Assembly (NCBI GenBank): GCA_019075925.1
Contig: JAGXAC010000016.1
Coordinates: 1 to 35,546, forward strand
Source of the DNA: Hyphomicrobiales bacterium
GTDB taxonomy: Bacteria > Pseudomonadota > Alphaproteobacteria > Rhizobiales > Xanthobacteraceae
Length of the DNA: 35,546 nt
Direction of reading: 5' to 3'
Of this stretch, positions 1,479 through 29,679 are shown piece by piece. Position numbers and translations under genes: made by a program. The notes below the pieces were generated by a model. It saw only the letters and a program-made list of their open reading frames with translations. It ran no database searches and was not told the DNA's origin. Each line of letters opens with the position of its first letter. Position 1 is the first letter of the stretch.

Positions 1479-4358
1479 TCAGCGCGCCATTTCGACTTTG
1501 CCGTGCGGCTGGAGCAAGGCGCGGGCGCGCTCGGGCGTCATCGGTTCGCCGAACACGAAGCCTTGTGCGTATTCGCAGCCAAGCTGGTAAAGCTCCACCG
1601 CATCGGAGTCGGTCTCGGCGCCCTCGGCGACCACATCCATTCCGAGGTCGTGCGCCAATGCGATGATCGAGCGCAAAATCACCGGCCGGGTGCCTTTTGC
1701 CGTCGTATGCACGAACGATTGGTCGATCTTGATCGTATCGAACGGAAAGCGCTGTAAATAAGCGAGCGACGAATAACCGGTGCCGAAATCGTCGAGCGCC
1801 AATCCGGCGCCCAATTCGCGAATCCGATGCAGCATCTGGGCGGCGTGCTCGGGATTTTCCATCACGATGGACTCAGTCAGTTCAAGCTTGAGCGAACCGC
1901 GCGCGAGCGGCGAACGCGCCAGCACGGTACGCAAGTCCTGGATCAAATCGTGTCGCAGCAATTGCCGCGAAGAAACGTTGACGCTGGCAAACAGGGTTTC
2001 CCGCGGCCGCAGCGTACGTTGCCAGGCACTGAGCTGCCGCGCCGTGCGCTCAAGCACGAACAGGCCGAGTTCCACGATCAGACCGCTTTCCTCGGCGATG
2101 GCGATGAATTCGTTCGGCGCTACCCGGCCGAGCTTCGGGTGGTTCCAGCGCGCCAGCGCCTCAAAGCCGGCGATCGCGCGGTCGTCGAGCCGCACAATCG
2201 GCTGATAAAGGATGGTGATCTCTTCGCGTTCAAGCGCCCGGCGCAAATCGGATTCAATCGACAGACGGTCCGACTTGCGCGCCCGCATCGCGAGCTTGAA
2301 GACGTCGATGCGGTCGCCGCCATTGCGTTTGGCGTGGTACATCGCCAGTTCCGCGTCCTTGAGCCGCTCCTCCGCGCGCTGCGGCTCGGAATCGCCGAGC
2401 GCCATGCCGATCGAGCCGGTCAGGAAAATTTCGCGATCGTTGAAGGTGATCGGTGCGCGCAGCGTGCGGCGGATGGTTTCGGCAAGCGCGGTGATGCGGG
2501 CAGAGTCGCGCTCCGACAACAGGATCAGCCCGAACTGATCGCCCGACAAGCGAGCGAGCGTATCATGCGGCTTGATCAGGCGCCCCAGCCGGCGTGCCAG
2601 CGTCAGCAGAATCGAATCGGCCAGCGCCATACCCACGGAATCGTTGACCTGCTTGAAGCGGTCGATGTCGATCACTATGACCGTCGGACGGATGGTGGAA
2701 TCGGCGTTGCCAAGCCCGAGCACGGCTTCGAGCCGATCGAGGAACAATTCGCGATTGGGCAGGCCAGTCAGGTTGTCGTGCACCGCATCGTGCAACAACC
2801 GTTCTTCGGCGGTCTTGAACTCGGTGACGTCGCTCAGCGTGCCGACCAGACGAATGACCTCGCCGTCGGAGCCGACCACCGGCCGCGCGCGCAAAGCGAA
2901 CCAGAGATAGTGGCCGTCGGCGGTGCGCATGCGAAAATCCTGCGCCACGCGGCCACGTCGTTGCTCGACGACACCATCGAGCGTAGCGCGGAAACGGTCG
3001 TGGTCGAGCGGATGCAGCACTTCGAGCCAAGCCGCAGCGGCTCCGTCGAGCGCGCCGTGCTTTAAGCCCAGCATCGCTTCGGTTTCCGGGCTGGTGAATA
3101 CGCGGTCGGCGGAGACGTCCCAGTCCCAGATCATGTCGCCGGCGCCGGTGAGCGCCAGCGCACGACGTTCGACGTCGGACACGATGCCCTGCGCCATGCT
3201 GCCGGCGAACGCGTGCTGCATCACCGTGAAGCCGATCAGCATGACAATCAGCACGAGTCCGCCCAGAAGAGCCGGTGCGACGATGTCATTGGTGAGAAAG
3301 CCAAGCACGGTGAGAGCGGCGCCGCATACCCACACAAACAGAAGGAACCAGGTCGGAATGAGCATGACAGCGCGGTCGAAGCCGTGCGTCGAGAGATAGC
3401 TCACGAGCGCCAGCCCAAGCACGGCCACGAGGAATAGCGATATGCGGGCGATACCCGAGGCGACAGGCGGCGAATACAGCGCAACCGCGACCAGAGCGCC
3501 GAGAAACGCCAACCAGCCGACGGTAATGTGGGCATAACGCACATGCCAACGATTCAGATTAAGATAAGCAAACAGAAAAACCAGCAGCGTCGCCGCCAAG
3601 ATCGCTTCGCCCGATGCGCGCCATATCCGCTCGACGCCAGACGACACCTCGAACACCTTGCTCCAGAATCCGAAATCGATGCCGATGTAGATCAGCACCG
3701 CCCAGCCGAGCGCGGCGGCAGCCGGGAACATGACGCTGCCTTTGACCACGAACAGAATCGTGAGGAACAGAGCGAGCAATCCGGCGATGCCGATAACGAT
3801 GCCTTGATAAAGCGTCAGCGAGTTCACCTTGTCCTTGAACGCATCGGGCTCCCATAAATAAAGCTGCGGCAGGTTTGGCGCGCGCAGTTCGGCGACGAAT
3901 GTGATCACGGTGCCGGGATCGAGGGTGACGCGGAATACGTCAGCTGTGACATTATCGACGCGCTCGGGCGGGTCGCCGGATGACGGGGTGATGTTGACGA
4001 TGCGGGACAGTCCGAGATCGGGCCATATCAGCCCGGAACCGACCATCCGGTAATGCGGTGCGACGATAAGCCGGTCGATTTGCTCATCGCCGTTGTTGGC
4101 GAGCGCAAACACCGCCCAGTTGTTGCCGGCTTCGCGTGCGCGCACCTCGATGCGCCGCACGATACCGTCCGTGCCGGGCGCGGTCGAAACCTGCACGCGG
4201 TCGCCGTCGGTGTGCTGGAACTCGACCGCGTTGGTAAGGTCGATCGCCGCCGCGTCAAGGCGGATATTGACCGCTTCTACCGCCGAGGCGGCGGAAATAC
4301 CAAACCATGCCGCGAATGCGAAGGCCGCGAGCGCCGTGGCGGCGCGAAGACATGCCAA
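1479..4358 (-). CDS. Membrane-bound PAS-GGDEF-EAL protein, probable c-di-GMP phosphodiesterase
   Basis: With the TTG start at 4358 the product has 959 residues. Its order is signal peptide (about 1-27), periplasmic sensory region (28-180), about seven membrane helices (185-385), a PAS domain (about 400-515), GGDEF (about 525-690) and EAL (about 705-950). The layout recalls 7TMR-DISM receptors. The GGDEF signature reads SGDQF, so cyclase activity is unlikely. The EAL domain keeps its catalytic residues: FEALARW, NVSSRQL, ELTES, DDFGTGYSSL, IKIDQSF, EGAET and YAQGF. Net activity is therefore predicted to be hydrolysis of c-di-GMP, with the degenerate GGDEF perhaps binding GTP. An ATG at 4598 would add 80 residues before the signal peptide, which is unlikely because a GGAGG sits 7 bases before the TTG. 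Confidence 0.9.
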   Translation of the reverse strand: MACLRAATALAAFAFAAWFGISAASAVEAVNIRLDAAAIDLTNAVEFQHTDGDRVQVSTAPGTDGIVRRIEVRAREAGNNWAVFALANNGDEQIDRLIVAPHYRMVGSGLIWPDLGLSRIVNITPSSGDPPERVDNVTADVFRVTLDPGTVITFVAELRAPNLPQLYLWEPDAFKDKVNSLTLYQGIVIGIAGLLALFLTILFVVKGSVMFPAAAALGWAVLIYIGIDFGFWSKVFEVSSGVERIWRASGEAILAATLLVFLFAYLNLNRWHVRYAHITVGWLAFLGALVAVALYSPPVASGIARISLFLVAVLGLALVSYLSTHGFDRAVMLIPTWFLLFVWVCGAALTVLGFLTNDIVAPALLGGLVLIVMLIGFTVMQHAFAGSMAQGIVSDVERRALALTGAGDMIWDWDVSADRVFTSPETEAMLGLKHGALDGAAAAWLEVLHPLDHDRFRATLDGVVEQRRGRVAQDFRMRTADGHYLWFALRARPVVGSDGEVIRLVGTLSDVTEFKTAEERLLHDAVHDNLTGLPNRELFLDRLEAVLGLGNADSTIRPTVIVIDIDRFKQVNDSVGMALADSILLTLARRLGRLIKPHDTLARLSGDQFGLILLSERDSARITALAETIRRTLRAPITFNDREIFLTGSIGMALGDSEPQRAEERLKDAELAMYHAKRNGGDRIDVFKLAMRARKSDRLSIESDLRRALEREEITILYQPIVRLDDRAIAGFEALARWNHPKLGRVAPNEFIAIAEESGLIVELGLFVLERTARQLSAWQRTLRPRETLFASVNVSSRQLLRHDLIQDLRTVLARSPLARGSLKLELTESIVMENPEHAAQMLHRIRELGAGLALDDFGTGYSSLAYLQRFPFDTIKIDQSFVHTTAKGTRPVILRSIIALAHDLGMDVVAEGAETDSDAVELYQLGCEYAQGFVFGEPMTPERARALLQPHGKVEMAR

Positions 4359-4365
4359 GGAACGC

Positions 4366-4370
4366 CCTCC
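4366..4370 (-). promoter_or_regulatory. Ribosome binding site GGAGG that decides a TTG start
   Basis: On the minus strand GGAGG lies 7 bases before a TTG codon at 4358. That TTG is followed directly by a typical signal peptide, so it is a better start for the phosphodiesterase than the far upstream ATG at 4598. Confidence 0.7.
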
Positions 4371-4655
4371 GATTTTAACGGCAACCCGCGCAGAAATTTT
4401 CCGGAACTCGCCGTCCCGCAATCTAGCCGACTTTGCCGCGAATTCGCAGCCGGCGGCAGCCGGAGCCAAACTTATAGCGCCGGCCGATGAGTAGCTGCTG
4501 AAGGGCACGAGCGCAAGAATTTTCCCGTGATTTTTCAAAGGGTCAGGTGAGGGCGGCGCGTCACGGATGGAACGAGCATTCGACGCGGTCGCAGGCATCC
4601 TTGCCGTGTGACATCCGCCGTCCCCGCGGCTAATTTAGCGACGTAGGAGAGTGCA

Positions 4656-4850
4656 ATGGCTGCGATCGACCCGGACGATCTGCCAAAGAAGAAAATCACG
4701 CACGAGTTGGGACAGGACCTGGCACTTCTGTCGGTAGGCGAGCTTGCCGAGCGGATCGGGCTCCTGAGGCAGGAGATTGCCCGCTTGGAGGCGGAAATGG
4801 CGCGCAAGAGGGCCTCCCAAACGGCCGCGGCCACGTTTTTCAAAAAATAG
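4656..4850 (+). CDS. DUF1192 family small protein
   Basis: A 64-residue protein with a conserved central motif (SVGELAERIGLLRQEIARL) that should form a short coiled coil, followed by a basic tail. This fits DUF1192, a small family usual in Hyphomicrobiales and often found beside rcdA, as here. The function is unknown. An AGGAG lies a few bases before the ATG. No membrane segment or enzyme motif is visible. The helix, rich in Leu, Glu and Arg, suggests a protein-protein contact role (inference). The gene is divergent from the phosphodiesterase and is followed by a CtrA-like box and a probable small RNA. Confidence 0.85.
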   Translation: MAAIDPDDLPKKKITHELGQDLALLSVGELAERIGLLRQEIARLEAEMARKRASQTAAATFFKK

Positions 4851-4893
4851 GCGCATCGGCCCGCGAAAAGATTTGGCAACCTTCCCGAATTTA

Positions 4894-4908
4894 TTAACCA
4901 TTAGTTAA
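4894..4908 (+). promoter_or_regulatory. CtrA-type binding site (TTAA-N7-TTAA)
   Basis: The sequence TTAACCATTAGTTAA matches the full CtrA consensus of two TTAA half-sites separated by seven bases. It lies about 30 bases before the expected start of the small RNA described below and 237 bases before rcdA. A CtrA box that overlaps the -35 position usually activates. The match is seen directly; binding is inferred. Confidence 0.65.
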
Positions 4909-4934
4909 GCTTTCTCGTTCATTACGGTTATCGT

Positions 4935-5024
4935 CCATCTTCTGGACATCGAGTGGCTCCTGTCCACTCTGTTTGACGCCTCCCTGTTATCACCTTGAGC
5001 CGCCGGCAACGGCGGCTCTTTTTT
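4935..5024 (+). ncRNA. Candidate CtrA-controlled small RNA with a C-rich loop
   Basis: The stretch lies between the CtrA-like box and a strong intrinsic terminator and contains no credible reading frame. A hairpin at 4951-4969 has arms GAGTGG and CCACTC around a CTCCTGT loop. A linker with GCCTCCCTG follows, then the terminator hairpin. Loops and linkers carrying CUCC or CCUCC can pair with Shine-Dalgarno sequences and are typical of several alphaproteobacterial trans-acting small RNAs. The 5' end is set about 28 bases after the CtrA box and is only approximate. It could instead be an attenuated leader of rcdA, with the terminator cutting most transcripts short. Confidence 0.5.
4997..5024 (+). 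terminator. Rho-independent terminator upstream of rcdA
   Basis: A perfect 8-bp stem (GAGCCGCC and GGCGGCTC) encloses the loop GGCAAC and is followed at once by six T residues. It ends transcription arriving from the CtrA-box side 120 bases before rcdA, so it is best read as the end of a short RNA. Confidence 0.85.
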
Positions 5025-5144
5025 GTGCTTTTAGCGGCGTCGTGCTGCGCTTTCGCGTGGCAACTATGTTGAAAATTGACGCGGGCGGCCTGCTGGACTC
5101 ACACCCTCGATCGCGCGATGCTGCGGTTTGTGTGAGGCGTAGCA

Positions 5145-5669
5145 ATGTCCGAGAAGCGTGCGAGTGAAGCCGGCGCGGTATCGTTTAGCGAGCGGCTGGC
5201 CAGTTCCCAGGTTTTTGCGACGCTGTTCCGTGATGGAATGGCGCTTGTCGAGGAGACCGCAAGTTATCTCGACGGCGCGGGCCGGACTGAATCCAAAAAG
5301 CTCGAGCGCAGCGCTGCGCTGGTCTATGCCACCGAAAGCATGCGCCTGACCACGCGTTTGATGCAGCTTGCCTCGTGGCTGTTGTTGCATCGCGCGGTGA
5401 AGGAGGGCGAGATGACGCTCGCCCAAGCGCACAAGGAAAAGAGCAAAGTGCGGCTTGCCGCCTGCGACCCGGGCGACCCGAAATCGATCGCGCTGCTGCC
5501 GGAGAAGCTTCAAGAACTGATCGCGCGCTCGACCAAGCTGCAGGCCGAGGTGCGCCGGCTCGATGCGACCATGCACGCGCCGCCGCCGGTCCAGATTCCG
5601 ACCGGCAATCCGGTTGAACGCCAGTTGGGTCTACTGAAAGCTGCCTTCGAGCAGCCGAACCGCCTCTGA
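5145..5669 (+). CDS. rcdA: RcdA, adaptor for regulated CtrA degradation (DUF1465)
   Basis: The 174-residue helical protein has the DUF1465 pattern: FRDGMALVEETASYLDGAGR, then YATESMRLTTRLMQLASWLLL, then a short linker and a C-terminal helix. In Caulobacter RcdA is an adaptor that, with CpdR and PopA, delivers CtrA to the ClpXP protease at the start of S phase. The C-terminal part after about residue 145 looks disordered, as in known RcdA proteins. A GTGAGG precedes the ATG. A CtrA box and a candidate small RNA lie directly upstream, so CtrA may feed back on its own degradation pathway (inference). It is convergent with rpmE. Confidence 0.88.
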   Translation: MSEKRASEAGAVSFSERLASSQVFATLFRDGMALVEETASYLDGAGRTESKKLERSAALVYATESMRLTTRLMQLASWLLLHRAVKEGEMTLAQAHKEKSKVRLAACDPGDPKSIALLPEKLQELIARSTKLQAEVRRLDATMHAPPPVQIPTGNPVERQLGLLKAAFEQPNRL

Positions 5670-20710: not shown

Positions 20711-20870
20711 CAGCGGGGCTGCCTGGTGCGTCAGGAGCCATAATTCCCGGGGCCTTATCGATCCTTAAGGGAACTGTCCCTGTCCGGGCTCCTGGGCTCG
20801 GGCACACGGTGCCCACCTACTTTCGTAGGGAACCTGGGATCGAAGCTCCAACGGCCAGGCGGCTCCGCAC
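20711..20870 (+). ncRNA. ssrS: 6S RNA
   Basis: The stretch between zapA and ygfA has the expected 6S architecture. A 14-bp closing stem (20713-20726 with 20855-20868, including two wobble pairs) is seen, and inner GC-rich arms such as GGGCTCCTGGGCTC surround an unpaired-looking centre near ATCGATCCTTAAGG. 6S RNA mimics an open promoter and binds housekeeping RNA polymerase in stationary phase. Length of about 160 bases and the flanking genes match 6S in related bacteria. The exact ends are estimated. Confidence 0.85.
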
Positions 20871-28717: not shown

Positions 28718-28732
28718 GACGTTATTAACGTC
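28718..28732. repeat. 15-bp palindrome GACGTTA-T-TAACGTC
   Basis: Perfect inverted arms of 7 bases around one T. It overlaps the first half of the CtrA-like box, so a second regulator could compete with CtrA. Confidence 0.55.
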
Positions 28733-28739
28733 GCATTAA
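28725..28739 (+). promoter_or_regulatory. CtrA-type binding site upstream of tolQ
   Basis: TTAACGTCGCATTAA matches TTAA-N7-TTAA without mismatch. It lies 227 bases before the tolQ ATG, so if it controls the tol-pal genes the leader would be about 200 bases long. Confidence 0.55.
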
Positions 28740-28965: not shown

Positions 28966-29679
28966 ATGAATGCAGCCGACATCACCACGTCGGCCCTGCC
29001 GTTGACCTCTTCCGATCTCTCGATGTTCCACCTGTTTTGGCAGGCCCATTGGCTGGTCAAAACAGTGATGACCGGTTTGATGGTGTGTTCGGTCTGGGTT
29101 TGGGCGATTGCGATAGACAAGACATTGCTGTTCCGGCGCATTCGTAAGAGCGGCCAAGGTTTCGAGCAGGCGTTTTGGTCGGGCCAGTCGCTGGAGGAGC
29201 TTTACGCTTCGCTCGCCGCCAAGCCCGGCCACTCGTCGGGTGCGCTGTTCGTCGCCGCGATGCGCGAGTGGAAGCGAAGCTTCGAGGGCCATGCCCGCTC
29301 CTTCGCCGGTCTGCAAATGCGCATCGAAAAAGTCATGAATGTTGCCATCGCCCGCGAGGTCGAACACATGGAGCGCTGGCTGTTGGTGCTGGCGACCGTC
29401 GGCTCAGCCGGTCCCTTTATCGGCCTGTTCGGCACGATCTGGGGCATCATGACCAGCTTTCAGTCGATCGCCGCCTCGAAGAATACCTCGCTGGCGGTGG
29501 TCGCCCCCGGCATCGCCGAAGCGTTGTTCGCGACTGCAATCGGCCTTATCGCCGCCATCCCGGCGACTATTTTCTACAATAAGTTCATCACCGAGGTGAA
29601 CCGGCAGGCACAACACTTGGAAGGCTTTGCCGACGAATTCACCGCGATTCTGTCGCGGCAGATCGACGAGCGCGGGTGA
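28966..29679 (+). CDS. tolQ: TolQ, proton-channel subunit of the Tol-Pal system
   Basis: The 237-residue inner-membrane protein has three membrane helices. The first follows FHLFWQAHWLVKTVMTGLMV, and the second and third contain GSAGPFIGLFGTIWGIMTSF and GIAEALFATAIGLIAAIPAT. Together with TolR it uses the proton gradient to energise TolA during constriction. GGAAAGGAC stands before the ATG. It starts the tolQRAB-pal unit; tolR follows after 9 bases. Confidence 0.95.
   Translation: MNAADITTSALPLTSSDLSMFHLFWQAHWLVKTVMTGLMVCSVWVWAIAIDKTLLFRRIRKSGQGFEQAFWSGQSLEELYASLAAKPGHSSGALFVAAMREWKRSFEGHARSFAGLQMRIEKVMNVAIAREVEHMERWLLVLATVGSAGPFIGLFGTIWGIMTSFQSIAASKNTSLAVVAPGIAEALFATAIGLIAAIPATIFYNKFITEVNRQAQHLEGFADEFTAILSRQIDERG

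Follow-up and report, generated by a model that had tools for sequence, protein, structure and literature searches.

Does the DNA in front of rcdA in this Hyphomicrobiales bacterium belong to the control region of that gene, or does it encode an RNA with a promoter and a terminator of its own? The question arises in a stretch of 35,546 nucleotides (the window), in which an earlier note had pointed out an exact TTAA-N7-TTAA site for CtrA, a hairpin with a CTCCTGT loop, a CCTCCC linker and a terminator hairpin with six T residues, and had read them as a CtrA-driven small RNA that feeds back on cell-cycle messages. Every one of these elements is present in the sequence (Table 1), and the start codon of rcdA is indeed 120 bases downstream of the terminator. 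The CTCCTGT hairpin, however, is 43 bases from the box rather than about 30, the terminator stem has nine pairs rather than eight, and hairpin 1, which lies between the box and hairpin 2, had been missed. The identification of the neighbor as RcdA also stands: its product matches the NCBIfam equivalog NF051867 with 205.7 bits (against 170), and RcdA 3ctw is its sole PDB match (E 5.2e-37). According to the open reading frames of the window, a gene for ribosomal protein L31 is found downstream of rcdA on the opposite strand. On the other side of the locus, a large gene for a GGDEF-EAL-PAS membrane protein (1479-4598, reverse strand) adjoins the DUF1192 gene.

Table 1. Features of the rcdA upstream region, in window positions
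Feature	Position	Strand	Basis or comment
DUF1192 gene	4656-4850	+	Upstream neighbor
CtrA box TTAACCATTAGTTAA, TTAA-CCATTAG-TTAA (exact TTAA-N7-TTAA)	4894-4908	+	5' base ~38 nt before predicted RNA start
-10-like element, CATTAC	4920-4925	+	Family consensus around TTATNANT; putative, from position only
Small RNA, family BjrC1505/SmelC671, ~95 nt	4930-5024	+	Predicted 5' end
Hairpin 1, GTCCA-TCTTC-TGGAC	4933-4947	+	Covariation (helix 1)
Hairpin 2, GAGTGG-CTCCTGT-CCACTC, CUCCUGU loop exposed	4951-4969	+	Covariation (helix 2)
Linker, unpaired in family consensus, core TTTGACGCCTCCCTGTT almost invariant	4970-4996	+	Conservation
CCTCCC within linker	4979-4984	+	Window sequence
Intrinsic terminator, GAGCCGCCG-GCAA-CGGCGGCTC (4997-5018), 9-pair stem, six T (5019-5024)	4997-5024	+	
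GAGGCGT at rcdA Shine-Dalgarno region	5134-5140	+	Possible pairing site
rcdA, adaptor for ClpXP degradation of CtrA	5145-5669	+	Possible lineage-specific target

The RNA is not new, but is a member of a known alphaproteobacterial sRNA family, BjrC1505/SmelC671. Window positions 4887-5025 on the forward strand match the Rfam family RF02356 (BjrC1505) with 120.6 bits (E 3.4e-23, model positions 1-140), against a gathering cut-off of 50, and the family occurs in a single copy in this genome assembly. The claim of a small RNA is therefore borne out. BjrC sRNAs come from Bradyrhizobium japonicum (PMC7143759), and BjrC1505 is also named as a table entry for a betaproteobacterium (PMC6337395). None of 14 control genomes, Caulobacter vibrioides among them, matches RF02356. 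The RNA shares a CCUCCCU stretch and a terminator with suhB/MmgR (RF00519), but membership in that family was rejected at 22.4 bits versus a cut-off of 41; SorY and VqmR were rejected as well, with Rfam scores that are both sub-threshold.

The part of the Rfam match from 4887 to ~4929 looks like a promoter, not RNA. In the alignment, the paired structure that the model assigns to its positions 1 to ~46 is not found, and most of the marked non-standard pairs fall there. The mean fold z-score, with one locus taken from each of 33 families, is -0.75 for the upstream segment versus -2.99 for the RNA part without its terminator. Because the rest of the model matches well, we read the unmatched pairing as a flaw of the model, whose first ~45 positions are probably promoter. 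Neither a function nor a promoter is given in the Rfam output for this family.

Three hairpins and an almost invariant unpaired UUUGACGCCUCCCUGU are supported for the RNA. The window RNA has a fold z-score of -4.84, and none of 200 shuffles is as stable. Among 60 homologues, 96.9% of 1074 cells are paired in the three-helix model, and changes on both sides are seen in 9 of 18 pairs (shuffled mean 3.6; 0 of 500 shuffles as high), while sliding the partners by 1 to 3 columns lowers pairing to 33-53%. The signal is distributed over helix 1 (changes on both sides in 3 of 5 pairs, 92.3% of cells paired), helix 2 (2 of 6, 100%) and the terminator, helix 3 (4 of 7, 97.6%). RNAalifold alone gives only hairpin 2 and the terminator, so that hairpin 1 was added by hand, and a single-sequence fold of the window draws a weak hairpin in the linker. 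The most conserved part is the linker with GACGCCUCCCUGUU, where 71 of 110 loci share the same 20-mer and 15-17 nt are almost invariant across the loci read; 55 of the 110 share hairpin 2 and its loop without change. The hairpin loop, whose lack of conservation in relatives would have refuted the proposal of the earlier note, is thus conserved, and so is the C-rich linker.

A homologue of this RNA has been observed as a transcript by others. In Sinorhizobium meliloti Ak57 (CP090106.1) it resides between DUF1192 and DUF1465 (RcdA) genes and matches our covariance model at 37.2 bits, and CUCCCUGU is single-stranded before the terminator both in the window (4980-4987) and in the Ak57 locus (at 2759). 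SmelC671 is 100 nt long by deep sequencing (PMC2873474), sm84 is ~80 nt long by northern blot and lies between SMc03988 and SMc03989 (PMC2573895), and the SmelC671 family has a conserved single-stranded CUCCCUGU (PMC3927594). Judging from synteny with Ak57, SMc03988 and SMc03989 of strain 1021 are presumably DUF1192 and rcdA. As the place, CUCCCUGU and the terminator in Ak57 fit SmelC671/sm84, the RNA is expressed, at least in S. meliloti. The window RNA and SmelC671/sm84 are alike in their location between DUF1192 and rcdA, the CUCCCUGU motif, the terminator and the CtrA box. In S. meliloti, however, neither the GAGTGG hairpin nor the linker's GACGC half is present, and the homologue scores below the RF02356 cut-off. 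Likeness of ReC71 from R. etli to the window RNA rests only on the statement of its authors. CP090106.1 itself is 3.7 Mb long, is labelled as the Ak57 plasmid pSymB and carries rcdA and rpmE; it looks like a chromosome or a mislabelled replicon.

We propose that the window encodes a CtrA-activated, separately terminated, trans-acting sRNA of ~95 nt that would pair with the Shine-Dalgarno sequences of mRNAs, and put the probability of this reading at roughly 0.66. CtrA would bind the TTAA-N7-TTAA box near -35 and activate the RNA's own promoter, transcription would end at the terminator before rcdA, and the RNA would be present at high levels of CtrA~P. Its CUCCUGU loop and UUUGACGCCUCCCUGU linker would then pair with mRNAs over their ribosome-binding sites and lower translation. 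Family, structure, box, spacing, terminator and conservation are drawn from sequence, and the transcript from the work of others on the S. meliloti homologue; from these we infer activation by CtrA, pairing to Shine-Dalgarno sequences and repression.

The proposed activation by CtrA, put forward in the earlier note, is strongly supported by conservation of the box and of its spacing. With at most one mismatch, the box is found 60-110 nt before the linker in 103 of 108 loci of the order, in 33 families, and is exact in 46. Seven control windows of the same width contain it in 1-11 of these loci (exact in 0-3), and the two highest controls are those between the terminator and rcdA. For 81 of the 103, the distance from the first base of the box to the anchor is 74-78 nt. 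These counts leave out one locus whose anchor has five mismatches (L093, the sole locus of family f43) and one at a contig end (L110). Because the Rfam model used to find the 108 loci includes the box, and so biases their selection, the box was recounted on loci anchored on rcdA. This reverse search kept 80 of 132 relatives, mostly near those of the window, and 72 remain after removal of 8 with no usable RNA anchor. The box (at most one mismatch) occurs in 70 of the 72, 48 of them exact, compared with 0, 0, 0 and 6 in four controls. Among the 79 rcdA-anchored loci with at least 300 bases upstream, 67 have the exact linker core and 61 have a TTWA-N7-TTAA box somewhere upstream; of the 67 core-bearing loci, 56 have a box that starts 79-83 bases ahead of the core. 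The 72 rcdA-anchored loci, like the class loci found with a model of the RNA alone, are free of the bias of the Rfam model. In the latter set, the box, with no more than one mismatch, precedes the core by 70-90 nt in 23 of 27 loci from outside the order, versus 0 of 26 for a control window; the 27 include near relatives (for example, L193/L194, L196-L198 and L203/L204) and leave out the window's own locus (L192) and two of the same order (L199, and L211 with no linker). Among five divergent homologues in the order, four carry an exact box that precedes the core by 87-104 nt, and L389 has no box even with one mismatch allowed.

By count, the exact box is not special, with 24 occurrences in the 3.55 Mb genome versus 26 of a reversed control pattern, and a simple scan of the window for terminators gave no excess (4 sites versus 3.3 expected). 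Box and terminator are significant because they are conserved; neither stands out alone. A sigma-70 scan of the window found no promoter at the -10-like CATTAC. A second exact TTAA-N7-TTAA is present at 28725-28739 of the window, ~230 bases before a gene at 28966 that, from reading its translation, we take to be tolQ-like; this box may be another CtrA site.

The spacing resembles that of a promoter activated by CtrA. At ctrA of Caulobacter, a full CtrA motif activates P2, for which it lies at -39, and presumably represses P3, for which it lies at -14 (PMC4287350). In the window, the first base of the box is ~39 bases from hairpin 1 and ~38 nt before the predicted start of the RNA, as at the activated promoter. 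The box is exact in S. meliloti Ak57 (TTAACCGCAAATTAA) and in Shinella. If the 100 nt reported for SmelC671 are counted back from the last T of the run, the 5' base of the box would lie at about -38 in S. meliloti, with the spacing computed on Ak57 and the published SmelC671 coordinates referring to strain 1021. For several alphaproteobacteria, predictions place CtrA sites in front of rcdA (PMC2877005), and CtrA sites have been confirmed upstream of an S. meliloti rcdA start site (PMC3616915); both studies credit them to rcdA. We found no paper linking the BjrC1505/SmelC671 RNA to CtrA in the open-licence literature searched, and Valverde et al. report that conserved upstream regulatory sites were detected at none of their sRNA loci (PMC2573895).

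Several observations count against a CtrA-activated sRNA of this kind. PMC7143759 lists SmelC671 with no sigma factor. In a set of 22 genomes, made up of RNA-bearing class genomes and four reduced genomes of the order, CtrA is over the cut-off in 18 and matches partially in one; the other three yield no CtrA match under the strict limit (E <= 1e-90). These three, and the lack of a box at L389, do not fit well. Many Shine-Dalgarno sequences are potential partners of a C-rich linker, and our searches for targets, described below, gave no recurrent one. Finally, Sinorhizobium (S. meliloti) and Shinella have a second exact box after the terminator, which makes a ChIP peak ambiguous. By ChIP-seq in S. 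meliloti, CtrA binds the rcdA promoter, and rcdA expression is unchanged on CtrA depletion (PMC4433202). Because the two exact boxes are 174 bases apart, that peak is not assignable to the RNA. An sRNA promoter would nevertheless offer an explanation for CtrA at the S. meliloti rcdA promoter without a response of rcdA.

The family is widespread in the order and nearly always has rcdA close by. RF02356 matches 245 of 297 genomes at E <= 0.001 and 212 at the cut-off, and 109 of 110 loci read, from 34 families, have an rcdA gene within the stretch. In 106 of the 108 anchored loci, rcdA is 3' of the terminator on the same strand, at a distance of 91-495 bases (median 172). Such an arrangement would be expected if the RNA were an rcdA mRNA leader, that is, a CtrA-driven transcript that mostly stops at the terminator, with some read-through into rcdA and the short RNA as a by-product. 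RNA and RcdA also tend to be absent together, since 8 of 20 Rfam-negative genomes examined (of 52 such in the order) lack RcdA; all 20 were chosen as Rfam-negative, and absence of the RNA from the 8 is by Rfam only. In the 12 with RcdA, 5 have a divergent homologue (27-45 bits with a second model, R2, and sequence read), and in 7 no homologue was detected in the stretch fetched around rcdA. The window itself has no CtrA half-site between the terminator and rcdA, which also agrees with a leader.

Other loci suggest, however, that rcdA has a promoter of its own. Between the terminator and rcdA, the half-site TTAAC[CG] is found in 57 of 106 loci (shuffles predict 11.2) and in 25 of 32 families, and a full-like box in 11 of 106, versus 0.45 expected. 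In agrobacteria, rcdA has multiple start sites in all three lineages (PMC10469942). Together with the second boxes in Sinorhizobium and Shinella, these sites favor two promoters with the terminator between them. Three divergent homologues of family f51 (L392, L394 and L395) have TACRYCTCCCT cores and several CtrA-like boxes, an exact one being 131-145 bases before the rcdA match.

Loci outside the order are also difficult to reconcile with a leader. At E <= 0.001, R1, an RNA-only covariance model built from 60 loci of the order, finds a match in 56 of 337 class genomes: the window's own genome and three others of the order, and 52 outside it. Many of the weak outside matches may be due to chance, but 14 outside-order genomes in six families score above 55 bits, and the outside loci that were read often have the core TTTGACGCCTCCCTGTT intact, or else a close variant of it. 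A class search with R2 (190 of 337 at E <= 0.01) was too permissive, so this model was used only where sequence was read; it was built partly from class loci found with R1, which therefore match it by construction. Several of the RNA loci outside the order have no recognized rcdA next door, and two genomes (G297 and G381) contain the RNA and CtrA over the cut-off with no RcdA found in either. Given these loci and the half-sites of rcdA itself, we reject the leader as the main explanation and consider it unlikely.

Which messages a separately terminated sRNA might control was approached through its loop and linker, whose C-rich sequences resemble anti-Shine-Dalgarno elements. Duplex energies of both were calculated against translation start regions in 30 genomes (ctrA 30/30, rcdA 29/30 and gcrA 21/30, with 9 gcrA starts not located by motif) and compared with 451 background regions, which are mechanical open reading frames and partly false. 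Median percentiles were 42 for ctrA, 43 for gcrA and 28 for rcdA with the linker, and 41, 30 and 49, respectively, with the loop. The earlier interpretation is upheld in part: the sRNA, the CtrA box and the RcdA neighbor stand, whereas for feedback on ctrA and gcrA the energies show no clear preference, and both were rejected as preferred partners. Pairing with rcdA is possible in some lineages, including that of the window.

In the window, GAGGCGT before rcdA is a perfect 7-base complement of ACGCCUC in the linker. The same heptamer occurs in 47 of 180 rcdA start regions, compared with 0 of 137 for DUF1192 and 1 of 146 for L31. Against shuffled linkers that keep CTCCC, rcdA has a mean z of -0.79 (179 loci), with p <= 0.05 in 18% of loci, versus 2% for DUF1192 (136 loci) and 5.5% for L31 (145 loci); many of the loci, however, are closely related. 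When the longest match is averaged by family, rcdA (5.22; 32 families) does not differ from DUF1192 (5.21; 28 families), with L31 at 4.42 (27 families). Since the effect vanishes by family against DUF1192, rcdA pairing is retained as lineage-specific only. A loop from CtrA through the sRNA to rcdA is possible in the window's lineage, but would not be a general rule. More broadly, patterns complementary to the linker exceed a reversed control before ATG codons in the 30 genomes, as any Shine-Dalgarno-like pattern would. Among the matches listed, 40 of 60 linker-complementary loci gave open reading frames of at least 50 amino acids, and no gene recurred beyond two pairs, one of near-identical genes in two genomes of the same genus and the other read as substrate-binding proteins.

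An almost invariant linker of 15-17 nt and the lack of a recurrent target in this limited search would also be expected if the RNA worked chiefly by engaging a protein or the ribosome, its CCUCCC linker serving as a sponge, for instance, and not by pairing with mRNAs. However, conserved unpaired stretches are also a usual mark of multi-target sRNAs, and we know of no protein partner of the BjrC1505/SmelC671 RNA; we regard such a mode of action as quite improbable. Least plausible of all is that the conserved box is the -35 region of an ordinary promoter or a site for another factor, which would agree with the unremarkable frequency of exact boxes in the window's genome and with the sigma-70 promoter assigned to sm84 (PMC2573895), but hardly with retention of both half-sites and the 7-base gap (at most one mismatch) in all 33 families, each having at least one such member, with an order consensus of TTAACC-N5-TTAAG followed by a -10-like ATNANT, or with the presence of CtrA in 30 of 30 order genomes tested and most of the 22 described above.

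A CtrA-activated sRNA that pairs with ribosome-binding sites would have a counterpart in Caulobacter. By working principle the nearest known RNA is CcnA, and by descent the nearest are BjrC1505 and SmelC671. CcnA is a cell-cycle noncoding RNA with a C-rich loop, is presumably activated by CtrA and is proposed to free or block ribosome-binding sites (PMC8959179). It is 182 nt long, is located at the replication origin and has a CCCC loop A, whereas the window RNA is ~95 nt long, lies beside rcdA and has no CCCC within 4930-5024. A CcnA homologue was not clearly detected in S. meliloti by the authors of PMC8959179. Two S. meliloti sRNAs, EcpR1 and GspR, act on cell-cycle mRNAs (PMC4414408, PMC5928217). 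Both have loci that differ from that of the window RNA, and the EcpR1 loop motif UCCGCCGCAUCU (PMC4414408) is absent from 4930-5024; identity with either was therefore rejected. No known promoter signature precedes the start of GspR (PMC5928217).

A wider proposal, which we hold tentatively and at somewhat short of even odds, is that BjrC1505/SmelC671 is an ancient CtrA-activated alphaproteobacterial RNA and a standing arm of the CtrA circuit. It would silence messages through its almost invariant linker at high CtrA~P, would be the Hyphomicrobiales counterpart of CcnA, and would be a reason why CtrA is found at an S. meliloti rcdA whose expression is unchanged. Catalogues of sRNAs have contained this RNA since 2008 (as sm84), Rfam includes it as well, and no assigned function was found in the literature searched. 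The conserved CtrA box suggests a concrete one, in which the master regulator of the cell cycle would act through an RNA in symbionts and in many of their free-living relatives, and what has been assigned to rcdA as CtrA sites in these bacteria may in part be the promoter of an RNA. Shortening the RF02356 model and adding divergent Rhizobiaceae such as S. meliloti should find more members. The window also contains a 6S RNA (RF00013) at 20713-20869 on the forward strand, matched in Rfam with 89.8 bits.
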